From: Catellicoccus marimammalium M35/04/3 | GTDB lineage: Bacteria; Bacillota; Bacilli; Lactobacillales; Catellicoccaceae | DNA length: 64,000 nt | Direction: 5' to 3' | Assembly: GCF_000313915.1 (NCBI RefSeq) | Contig: NZ_AMYT01000021.1 | Span: 1-64,000 of the forward strand | Shown: piece by piece, positions 14,298 through 18,482 of the stretch | How positions within the stretch are numbered: position 1 is the first letter of the stretch | Layout of the letters: each line of letters opens with the position of its first letter | Program-made: the position numbers and the translations under genes | Notes under the pieces: generated by a model | What the model was told of the DNA's origin: nothing | Seen by the model: only the letters and a program-made list of their open reading frames with translations | Databases searched by the model: none

Positions 14298-14400
14298 CAT
14301 ATCTTTTCTTAAATTATGAACTTTCTAAAATTTATAAATGTGAGTAAAATTTTATTAAATAAGAAATTAATAAAAAATTCACATATTAAGGAGATAAGTG

Positions 14401-17400
14401 ATGAGTAAAAAAGCTATTTTAAGCACCCTATTAATCTCAAGTGCTTTATTAGGAGCTACAGTTGCTAATGCTGCAACTTCTGAAATTAAAGCAGAAAACA
14501 AAAAAGTTACTGTATCTACAAGCCATGCAAAATTCAAAATTAAAAGAATCAACTACCCCTAAAAATGGTACTGTATATCAAGTAGACGGATACCGTAATA
14601 TTGATGGTAAACATGTATATCGTGTATACCAAACAGATAAAGATGGTAAAAAAGCATATCGTGGATATATTGATCGTAAAGATACAAAAGATTTTAATGC
14701 TGAAAAAGCTGAAGGTCAATTTGTATTAAATGGAAAAGCTAACGTGTGGAAAAACTTCTATTGGACAGCTAAAAATACTGACAATGCAGAACGCGTAGTA
14801 TTTGCAAAATACGAATATACATTAGGAAATGGACAAAAATATTACTCAGTATATTCTAAAGATGCTGAAGGAAAAGAAGTATGGCAAGGATATACTTCAA
14901 AATCTAACTTAAAAGAAGTTACTTCAACAAAAGAAAGTAAATATGTTACTTTGAAAAAAAATACAAAATCATTTGCCAACTTATACTTCCAACAAACAAA
15001 AGATAGTTTTGATGCAAGTAAAGGAGTAAACTTCAAAGTTACTCGTTACTATACGATCGATGGTAAAAAATATTACTCAACAGAACAATCTAAAGAAGCA
15101 TGGACAGGTTATGTAGATTCTTCAGTAGTAGAAGATCTAACAGCCAAAAAAGTAGCAGCTGCTGATTCTAAAGTTAAAGTAGCTAAAGAATGGAACACAT
15201 ATAGTGACCACTTCTACACTAAAAAAGCAAAATTAGCAGACTATAAAGGTAAAGATTTAACTGCAAAATATGTATACACTTACGGAAATGGTAAGAAATA
15301 TGCTTCATTATACGATGGAGACACATGGGTAGGTTATGCCAATGTAGAAGCTTTAGATGTAGTTACTGAAGATAAACCAACAAATCCAGAAAAACCAGAG
15401 GTAAAACCAGAACAATCTGAATTAGAAAAAGCGAAAAAAGCTGCAGAAGAAGCAATTAAAAAAGCAGAAGCTGAATTAGCTAAATCAAACGCTTCAAAAG
15501 AATCTAAAGAAGCTGCACAAAAAGTTATCGATGCTGCTAAAGAAACAGTTAAAGGTGATAACTTAGATGCAATTAAGAAAATTCCAGCTCAATTAGATGA
15601 AGCAATCAAAGCATTACAACCTGCAGATGTAAAAGCATTAGAAGATGCTATTAAACGTGCAGAAAGTTTAGTTGGAACTCCTGGTTTAACTGGAACAGAT
15701 GAAGTAAAAGCTAAATTAGACGTTGCGAAAAAAGTGTTAGAAGAAGCGAAAAAAGGTGCAGCTTCTAAAGAAGACATCAAGAAAGCAACAGATGAATTAG
15801 AAAAAGCAATTGCTGGTGTGAAATTAGACACTACAAACTTAAAAGATGCATTAGAAGCGACAAAACAATTAGCAAAAGACTACTATTTAACAAAAGATCA
15901 AGAAGCTAAATTAAATAAAGTCTTTGATGAAATCCAAAAAGTTGTAGACGACGCTAAAACAGATAAAAAAGCTGTTGATGCAGCAAAAGCAAAATTAGAT
16001 AAAATTGCGGATGCTTTAAAAGTTCAACCAACTTATACTCAAGGTCAAGCATTAAGTGAAGCAATTGCCAAAGCAAACAAATTAAAAGCACACGAAGAAG
16101 CTGCTAAAGTTTTATTTGAAGACTTCAACGGATTAAAAGTTGCTTACAAAGAAGCTACAGATACAATGACTGAATTGAAGAAAGATCCTCAAGCTTTTGG
16201 AGCAACTAATACAGCAACAAAAGAAATGACAGCACAACAAGTTGAAGAAGTTGCGAAAAAATTAAATGATGCATTAGACAACTTGAAGATCAATGCCGAA
16301 AATACAAAAGCGTTCTATGATGAAGCGAAAAAAGCAATTGATAAATTAGCTACAGAAAATCAAACAGACCCTAAAGCTAAATTAGATGCTTTTGCAGAAG
16401 CTGCGAAGAAAGGAACAGCAAAAGATATCAATGAAATCTTAGATACTGCTAAAGCTTTAGTAAATGCAATCGATGCGGCGCAAAACAAAGAATTGGAAGA
16501 AGCTATCGATAAAGCAGAACGTATCATTAAAGAAAATGATGCAGCTAAAGAAGGAAATCAAGGTACTGATGAAGACTTCTATACAGCAGATACATTTAAT
16601 AAATTAAAAGAAGAATTGAAAAAAGCTCAAGAAGCAATTCAATTAACTCCAGCAACAATTACAAAAGAAACAGCTCATAATAAAGCTAATTCTAAAGATG
16701 CTTTAGATAAAGCTATTAATGATTTACAAATTAATCATTGGGATTCTGAAGTAAAAGATGGGAAAGTTGTATTAACAAAATATAAACCATTAGCTATTGA
16801 TGAAAGTCAAAAAGAGAAAAATGGTATTATTTATCGTAAAGATAAAATTGTAATTCCTGGTAAATTAAAAGATATGCCAGTAGAATTAAATATCAAGTAT
16901 CAAGATCCATCTACATATTTAAATCCTATTATTGACGATACTGATTTAAAAGAAAAAGTAGTTGTTAATGCTCAACAAGTTCCAGTAACATTCAAAGAAG
17001 TAGACGGACAAAAGGTTACTACTGGAGATAAACTATGGGGAACATTCTCTTACATGGGAACAATTGATGTATCTGGACTAGATACTTCAAATACAACTTC
17101 TTTCTTTAAAACATTTTGTGCTAATACAAGTGAATCAATTAAAGGGATTGAAAACTTAAATACTTCAAAGGCTACAGACTTCAGTTCTATGTTCTCGGAT
17201 GCCAAAAGCTTAACAACATTGGATTTGTCTAAATGGAATACGGATAATGTAGGAAAAATTACTTCAATGTTCTTTGATACACCAAAATTAACTCATTTAG
17301 ATTTAAGTGGTTGGACATTGCCAAAAGTTCCTAATAATTGCCCACAATCTAAAGTATTTGGCGATAAAAATACTTTATCAGGTGTAGGGACAGCACCGAA

Positions 17401-17593
17401 ATATAATTCATTCTGTGGTGTTATTCGCTACCCAGATATGGATAAAGATGCCAAAGATAATAACTTAAACAAAGCACCTGTATGGATTGATGGATTAATT
17501 TTCCCAACAAATGAACGTGCTAAACATATTATTGAAATGGACTTAGATGATTCTATTACTGGAACAATGGATCATACGAAACCTAAAAAATAA
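14401..17593 (+). pseudogene. Frameshifted paralogue of the 11254 surface protein
   Basis: ATG at 14401 follows a strong AAGGAGAT and starts a good signal peptide (MSKKAILSTLLISSALLGA, then ANAATSEIKAENKKVTV). The frame stops at 14560-14562 after 53 codons. From about 14540 the homologous sequence continues in the +1 frame to 17593, with the same architecture as the upstream paralogue: SH3/GW-like repeats (the first truncated), FIVAR-like helices and a BspA-like C-terminus. Aligned to the 11254 gene, 11 bases are missing between GCAAAATT and CAAAATTAAAAG. In the intact copy the missing stretch is flanked by ATT, so a short-homology deletion is plausible. The long downstream frame could only begin at internal codons near 14462 without ribosome binding site or signal peptide, so export is lost unless the frame is restored. 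The remaining 1000 or so codons contain no other stop, so the lesion looks recent. Confidence 0.8.
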
Positions 17594-17608: not shown

Positions 17609-17642
17609 AAAACACCTAGACATCGCGTCTAGGTGTTTTTTC
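17609..17642 (+). terminator. Rho-independent terminator
   Basis: AAACACCTAGAC pairs with GTCTAGGTGTTT around loop ATCGC and ends in a T run; 15 bases after the stop codon. Confidence 0.88.
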
Positions 17643-17649
17643 ATCTTTT

Positions 17650-18050
17650 AATATATCGATATATCAGAATATCGATATTCTGATATCTTAATATACCCAT
17701 AATATATCGGTATACCGATATATTAACGTTTTCATGTATAGAATCATGAAAACGTTAAAGTGTTAAAGTGTTAAAGTGTTAAAGTGTTAAAGTGTTAAAG
17801 TATGAAATTATATAAAAGATAAAAAGGTACATGGCTACATGTATCTTTTTATCCATGTAGCCATGTATCTTTGTAGCTAAAATAAACTTTCTTTGAAAAG
17901 TATACTTGTACACATGTATACATTCATACATCAGCACATCGATACATCAATACATTCACACATTGATATATTCATCTATCGCTAACTAAAAAACTTTCCC
18001 TAAGGCATACATGCATGTTATGCATACAACTATACTACTGTACTACTAAA
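17650..18050. repeat. Octamer-periodic, palindrome-rich non-coding block
   Basis: This 400-base gap has no gene. It is built of degenerate 8-base units that keep one register throughout. Counting from 17657: CGATATAT, CAGAATAT, CGATATTC, TGATATCT; at 17753 CGTTAAAG then five perfect TGTTAAAG (17761-17800); from 17825 AGGTACAT, GGCTACAT, GTATCTTT, TTATCCAT, GTAGCCAT, GTATCTTT; from 17913 CATGTATA, CATTCATA, CATCAGCA, CATCGATA, CATCAATA, CATTCACA, CATTGATA; at 18033 TACTACTG and TACTACTA. Superimposed are perfect palindromes at 17661-17686 and 17700-17725, and hairpins at 17723-17758 (14-bp stem, 8-base loop) and 17828-17867 (14-bp stem). Function unknown; it separates the convergent surface and reverse-strand gene groups. 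Confidence 0.8.
17761..17800. repeat. Five perfect tandem copies of TGTTAAAG
   Basis: Forty bases of exact 8-base tandem repeat, preceded by one variant copy CGTTAAAG at 17753-17760 that also belongs to the right arm of the 17723-17758 hairpin. Confidence 0.97.
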
Positions 18051-18070
18051 TGTCTTCCAAAATCCCACTA

Positions 18071-18100
18071 AAAAAGCTCTCTATCAAGAGAGCTTTTTTT
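18071..18100. terminator. Bidirectional Rho-independent terminator
   Basis: AAAAAGCTCTCT (18071-18082) and AGAGAGCTTTTT (18087-18098) form a perfect 12-bp stem with A and T runs on the two sides. It closes the reverse-strand DUF302 gene whose stop is at 18099. Confidence 0.9.
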
Positions 18101-18482
18101 ATTTACAACGTTCTAAGTAGCCCGCATAAAATTGGCACATATGATCCAAAATTTGTTGTCCTTGTTCATTCAAACGGTCATGATGGACAAATTCTTTTGG
18201 ATTTTTGTAAATCACTTTGGTTCCCTTGTTGTCCCCAATGAGTAATAACTTCAATGGTAATTCAAAAGTGATTTGGTCATCTTGTTGCATTAACAATGTC
18301 CCAACTTTTGGATTGCCAAAAATATAATAAAGCGTAGGTTCAATCGTTAAATCCACTTGGCGTGCTTCTTTGCATTGGTCGATTTTATCAAAAATCTTCA
18401 TTCCACGTTCAGTGACCCAAGCTTCAAAACGACGAGCTGCTTCTTCAATCGATAAATCAATATGTTCTTCAATGTATTCCAT
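18099..18482 (-). CDS. DUF302 family protein
   Basis: 127 residues, cytoplasmic, no signal peptide. The central PTLYYIFGNPKVGTLLM followed by ITFELPLKLLLIGDNKGTKV and a VIYKNP strand is characteristic of DUF302 proteins, small dimeric alpha/beta proteins of unknown function, some redox-linked. It lies 12 bases after the cupin gene on the same strand, so the two are probably one operon ending at the 18071 terminator. The ribosome binding site GGAGGGAAATCTC lies just ahead of the ATG. Family call fairly sure, function unknown. Confidence 0.8.
   Translation of the reverse strand: MEYIEEHIDLSIEEAARRFEAWVTERGMKIFDKIDQCKEARQVDLTIEPTLYYIFGNPKVGTLLMQQDDQITFELPLKLLLIGDNKGTKVIYKNPKEFVHHDRLNEQGQQILDHMCQFYAGYLERCK

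Follow-up and report, generated by a model that had tools for sequence, protein, structure and literature searches.

The chromosome of the gull-gut bacterium Catellicoccus marimammalium carries a non-coding block of 429 bp (17643-18071) that is built of octamers almost from end to end, and the question is what kind of element such a block represents and whether it does anything for its host. The block lies in the window, i.e. the 64,000-nucleotide stretch of DNA that was analysed, on a 153,794-base contig of the draft genome of the type strain (23 contigs, 1.28 Mb, N50 153,794, largest contig 308,478 bases). The N50 and the largest contig match those in the genome announcement, whereas the G+C content computed here is 33.9%, compared with the 42.0% printed there (PMC3569323). 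The genes around the block are ordinary chromosomal ones (cupin, YfhO, RadA, a PIN-domain protein, tRNA synthetases and DUF302) along with genes for surface proteins, and the position between convergent gene groups that an earlier note on this DNA had described is borne out by two facing terminators that flank the block (Table 1). No par, rep or recombinase genes, or remnants of such genes, were detected around the block (C19:5001-35000), and there is no integrase among the scanned flanking genes. A protein-based search of genome contigs yielded no relatives of the neighbouring DUF302 gene, and no DUF5388 gene was found in the C. marimammalium genome, the latter in a search with a weak control. 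In the second DUF285 surface-protein gene (14396-17593), the start and the signal peptide (MSKKAILSTLLISSALLGATVANA...) are out of frame with the remainder, the explanation being phase variation, breakage of the gene or an error in the sequencing.

Table 1. The octamer-periodic block, its borders and its sub-arrays (positions in the window).
Feature	Positions	Strand	Details
Left border: intrinsic terminator of the DUF285 surface-protein gene 14462-17593	17609-17639	+	13-bp perfect stem, loop 5, T-rich tail
Whole octamer-periodic block between convergent terminators	17643-18071	.	lag-8 z 11.7; unique in the genome
Sub-array A: AT-rich octamers TATCGATA, NGATATNN as inverted pairs	17646-17726	.	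perfect 26-bp palindromes 17661-17686 and 17700-17725
Hairpin leading into sub-array B	17723-17758	.	14-bp perfect stem, loop 8
Sub-array B: CGTTAAAG, then TGTTAAAG x5, final unit degenerate	17753-17808	+	TRF: 6 perfect copies
Sub-array C: GTATCTTT / TTATCCAT / GTAGCCAT, direct and inverted	17812-17880	+	includes 14-bp-stem hairpin 17828-17867
Sub-array D: GTATACNN / CATNNATA (reverse complement TATNNATG), about 10 octamers	17897-17984	-	TRF period 8/16/24
Sub-array E: TACAACTA TACTACTG TACTACTA (reverse complement TAGTAGTA)	18005-18050	-	PWM scores at par loci
Right border: hairpin/terminator of the convergent DUF302 gene 18099-18482	18070-18099	-	13-bp perfect stem, A6/T7 on either side

The lag-8 peak above shuffled sequence, which the earlier note had proposed as a check, is present and strong. 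Identity at lag 8 within the block is 0.556, compared with 0.298 in dinucleotide shuffles (z 11.7), and z is still 9.1 after the removal of the TGTTAAAG array; lags 16, 24 and 32 are elevated as well, and lags 5, 7, 9 and 11 are depressed. A search for other octamer-phased blocks, suggested in the same place, found no rival in the genome: over the entire 1.28 Mb, the block gives the top lag-8 signal at 100, 200 and 400 bp (z 8.8-9.9, with the runner-up at 5-6), and there are no further copies of it. Nor is there a comparable block in 1.2 Mb of a relative's chromosome, where the best 400-bp lag-8 value is 0.383, compared with 0.573 here. The octamers between 17657 and 18048 had been described as keeping one phase through several changes of family. 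The period and the multiplicity of families hold, whereas the common register does not: in phase profiles, offset 0 is the best for none of the 10 pairs of sub-arrays, and the in-register autocorrelation reaches the background by about 64 bases. The lag-8 match is weak at stretches such as 17881-17896 and 17985-18004. Period 8 runs throughout the block, and the register is local to each octamer family.

The symmetrical elements are exactly where they had been read from the sequence, namely, the perfect 26-base palindromes at 17661 and 17700, the hairpins with 14-bp stems at 17723 (arms 17723-17736/17745-17758) and 17828 (arms 17828-17841/17854-17867), and the five tandem copies of TGTTAAAG (17761-17800). 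Near-pure head-to-tail units of a single octamer are confined to sub-array B, the rest of the block being degenerate and partly inverted.

Plasmid centromeres are the DNA sites by which plasmids are shared out at cell division, and it is to the regions of such sites that the sequence matches of the block lead. In the blastn search of plasmids, the matches concentrate on sub-array C, which is identical to Apilactobacillus kunkeei plasmid 2 in 39 of 40 bases (E 1e-8) and to the DNA upstream of parA in pWCFS103 in 86% of the positions over 37 bp; shorter matches were obtained with many plasmids of Lactiplantibacillus, Levilactobacillus and Enterococcus. The annotation of the A. kunkeei plasmid uses phage-style locus tags and names no par genes within the stretch read. 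In the annotated cases (pWCFS103, E. faecalis, Listeria pLIS23 and Exiguobacterium pB), the matched DNA is non-coding and adjoins a ParA gene, mostly one with a DUF5388 or another small partner gene; this is the position expected for a centromere. When 395 Lactobacillales genomes were searched, the off-genome matches with E below 1e-3 were those in G155, G700 (twice), G753, G044 and G115, and each of them lies near a parA of the PrgP/DUF5388 type, just upstream of the gene and at a distance of at most a few hundred bases. These matches originate from sub-array B (G700, G155, G044), from sub-array C (G753 and the plasmids) and from the border between the two (G115 and Listeria). The block matched 28 par loci in blastn, compared with 2 each when it was reversed or complemented, and in the control with permuted octamer columns, 23 loci were reached in 1 of the 40 replicates.

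The anatomy of the partition loci themselves is similar to that of the block. Period 8 is the best in the range of 5-15 in 49 of the 66 collected loci of the ParA + DUF5388/PrgP type, and the octamers of the period-8 loci are very diverse (CTTGTATC, GTATTCAA, TTTACTAC, TCTATAAA, TATAGATT, TAGTGCTG and ATGTATAC, among others). The array of pTEF1 consists of TTTTACTA/TTCTACTA, the reverse complement of the pAD1 iteron TAGTARRR. Perfect spacerless palindromes of at least 22 bases are present in 17 of the 85 par loci, where the genome rate predicts 0.043 per locus, so that the palindromes of the block belong to the same anatomy. Period 8 thus can serve as a simple, searchable mark of ParA/DUF5388 partition centromeres in lactic acid bacteria, enterococci and Listeria, and with this survey orphan chromosomal arrays become systematically searchable, despite the wide divergence of the octamers.

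The specificity of the match was assessed with PWMs derived from distinct plasmid arrays, which were run across the genome, the best three-octamer match being scored as inside or outside the 429-bp block. The best genome-wide match fell in the block for 22 of the 35 plasmid arrays, compared with 4.9 +/- 1.6 (maximum 8, 40 replicates) when the columns were permuted, and in a larger set for 25 of the 44 arrays, compared with 5.5 +/- 2.1 (maximum 10); these counts are to be taken as guides rather than probabilities because the plasmid arrays are not all independent. The signal from the larger set is distributed unevenly among the sub-arrays, with 12 best matches in D (Exiguobacterium pB leading), 6 in C, 5 in B and one each in A and E. 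The PWM of the G700 array scores sub-array B 17.2 bits above any other site in the genome. In the opposite direction, block-derived matrices beat all 400 random genome segments at many par loci. The matrix of sub-array A exceeds 400 random 3.2-kb segments of the genome only at the pTEF2 par locus (17.6 vs 14.9), and this sub-array is the weakest link to plasmids. With the matrix of sub-array E, the scores are 19.7 for the par locus of pTEF1 and 23.0 for L107, compared with a maximum of 13.9 among 400 random segments, evidence that is weak given that this sub-array has few units. Judging by the octamers, the match to real par loci appears strong for sub-arrays B, C and D, and weak for A and E. 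The case for a plasmid-type identity rests on sub-arrays C and D, together with the permutation controls.

The block also appears to be composite. Segments within one plasmid locus have a median similarity of 0.96, or 0.91 at a laxer threshold, whereas for segments from different plasmids the median is 0.70. Among the seven block segments, the median mutual similarity is 0.71, a value that may be lowered somewhat by the periodicity cut-off, which was 0.56 for the block segments vs 0.60-0.66 for the plasmid segments. A single family spanning the block was rejected on the strength of this comparison. The two segments of A are alike (0.94), C is close to the first part of D (0.90; the C/D range is 0.83-0.90), and B stands apart from all other segments (0.51-0.68); hence, three to five families are joined in the block, of which, given the resemblance between C and D, perhaps only three are independent. 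At the stricter threshold, several families in one locus were not observed in any of the sampled plasmid loci.

We conclude that the block is probably an orphan, composite array of plasmid-type centromeres residing on the chromosome; the confidence placed in this identity overlaps with that in the fossil origin considered below because the latter shares the same identity. Of the readings offered in the earlier note, we favour that of an array bound by a protein at sites spaced 8 bases apart, given that both the octamers and their period appear to recur at the centromeres of DUF5388/PrgP-type plasmids. The statement in that note that no named element has this form applies to the chromosomal composite, which is not known to have a name, but not to its parts, which look like centromeres of plasmid type.

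With regard to function, centromere incompatibility seems the most economical proposal and is our leading guess, SGI1 being the precedent. The small centromere-binding protein of ParA + DUF5388/PrgP-type systems would be expected to coat tandem 8-bp sites, and we infer that DUF5388 proteins coat arrays of boxes in this manner. The families in the block look as if they were taken from different plasmids, and when a plasmid or phage-plasmid enters the cell, its centromere-binding protein may bind the block. Such binding might tether the plasmid partition complexes to the chromosome or else titrate the protein, and plasmids with matching centromeres would then be lost, so that the block would act as a passive exclusion decoy. 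We put forward this decoy function tentatively. A more elaborate form of it, which we consider doubtful, is a ‘centromere bank’, that is, a gene-free locus that gathers centromere fragments of several unrelated plasmids and phage-plasmids and keeps out newcomers whose partition systems match, a passive defence made of DNA only. For SGI1 to cause plasmid loss, the parS mimic had to be present at increased copy number (PMC10954446), and therefore, a single chromosomal copy may act weakly. The plasmid-like contig C16, which has no such octamer array upstream of its parA, fits the notion of a resident plasmid that is not targeted, although this is not a proof.

The same resemblance to plasmid centromeres would be expected if the block were a fossil, i.e. 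the partition region or regions of one or several formerly integrated plasmids, with the genes deleted and no present function. This is a distinct possibility, decoy and fossil being equally possible, and it agrees with the reduced genome of the species, which still carries the plasmid-like C16 with repA and parA/parB. However, the rep, par and recombinase genes have left no trace nearby, the arrays, which are intact, run up to two tidy terminators, and one plasmid would be expected to yield one family rather than several.

A less likely origin is that of a generic octamer satellite, arising in a spacer free of constraint through slippage and through template switching at hairpins, whose likeness to centromeres would come merely from AT-rich octamers. 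Such an explanation applies above all to the perfect TGTTAAAG run, and sub-array B alone could be a satellite of this kind. The location of the spacer between convergent terminators is compatible with this origin, as are perfect arrays of block-like units far from such parA genes in Vibrio, Psychrobacter, Bacteroidota, Planctomycetota and viral contigs. It counts against the satellite origin that octamers with permuted columns, in which period and composition are retained, have their best match in the block 4-5 times less often, that the degenerate, inverted and palindromic units resemble centromeres rather than pure satellites, and that the block is unique in the genome and absent from the relative's chromosomal sequence. 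Long octamer satellites (GTATCTTT, GTAGCTAT, GTAGCCAT and GTAGCCTT) were observed away from PrgP-type parA at L178, L184, L192, L196-L198, L213, L232 and L248, in Edaphovirga, Hymenobacter, Phycisphaerales, Saprospiraceae, Flavobacteriales, Psychrobacter and Alkalibaculum, with several such arrays in one Saprospiraceae MAG.

Still less likely, in our assessment, is an array for a ribbon-helix-helix protein of the host's own, encoded by the chromosome or by a resident plasmid (for example, the 109-aa ParB-like protein of C16), that would serve plasmid segregation or tethering. C16 does encode ParA together with a small protein whose C-terminus is RHH-like, and TTAAAGTG is present twice upstream of its parA, but the DNA upstream of this parA has neither a period-8 array nor a significant match to the block, and a single protein would have to read unrelated octamers. 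The 46-kb C16 is plasmid-like in its gene arrangement (L039 14927-17973), in which a rep-like gene is oriented divergently from parA and the gene for the 109-aa RHH-like partner.

The remaining candidates were rejected: a replication terminus or dif (the site resembling dif lies elsewhere, at C15:35849, and the block shows no switch in GC skew), an RNA element (sub-threshold Rfam matches only), a hidden gene (no credible ORF in the block, just short, spurious ones) and a phage origin (no good match among phage records). In the viral contigs, there are no occurrences of the exact patterns from sub-arrays A, C, D and E, and that of B occurs in 3 of them, none with parA nearby. Near the switch in the sign of the GC skew on contig C17, there are two palindromes of 26-28 bp (69657-69684 and 71402-71427) composed of inverted DnaA-box-like sequences (AGTTATCCACAAT).

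Among the known systems, the centromeres of PrgP/ParA + DUF5388 plasmids (the pAD1/pTEF1 RepB-RepC type and the pWCFS103 type) consist, like the block, of tandem degenerate period-8 octamers, direct and inverted, with long perfect palindromes. Family C is shared with pWCFS103 and A. kunkeei, family B with G700 and G155, and family D with Exiguobacterium pB; family E is shared weakly with pTEF1, whose TTTTACTA reads TAGTARRR on the opposite strand. These plasmid centromeres lie beside their own parA/parB and contain one family each, whereas the block is chromosomal, combines several families and has no par genes. The centromere region of the pCF10 PrgP/PrgO system, with AT-rich repeats between repA and prgP, superficially resembles sub-array A; the likeness is good by eye but was rejected because the pCF10 centromere has a period of 9, as opposed to 8. 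Period 9 is found in the PrgP/PrgO centromere regions of the pCF10 type (L177 2780-2900, L254-L256), the related PrgP and DUF5388 systems having period 8.

The parH site of TP228 and other type Ib centromeres share with the block the organization as an array of degenerate short boxes; parH has AT-rich spacers and is coated by dimers of the RHH protein ParG (PMC7308502). It differs from the block in its sequence and host, and in lying on a plasmid together with parF/parG. The parS mimics of SGI1, which hijack the parABS system of IncC plasmids, similarly place mimics of a plasmid centromere in a chromosomal element; they bind the IncC ParB and expel the plasmid, and chromosomal copies of the IncC parS exist also outside SGI1-like elements (PMC10954446). 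SGI1 is a mobile island that mimics one plasmid type with the aid of the helper Sci and an increase in copy number, whereas the block would mimic several types, with no island, no genes and a putative function. The parS mimics known so far concern one plasmid type and one mobile island; the block, if functional, would be a DNA-only plasmid-exclusion device that unites decoys for several types of plasmid in a single place on the chromosome.
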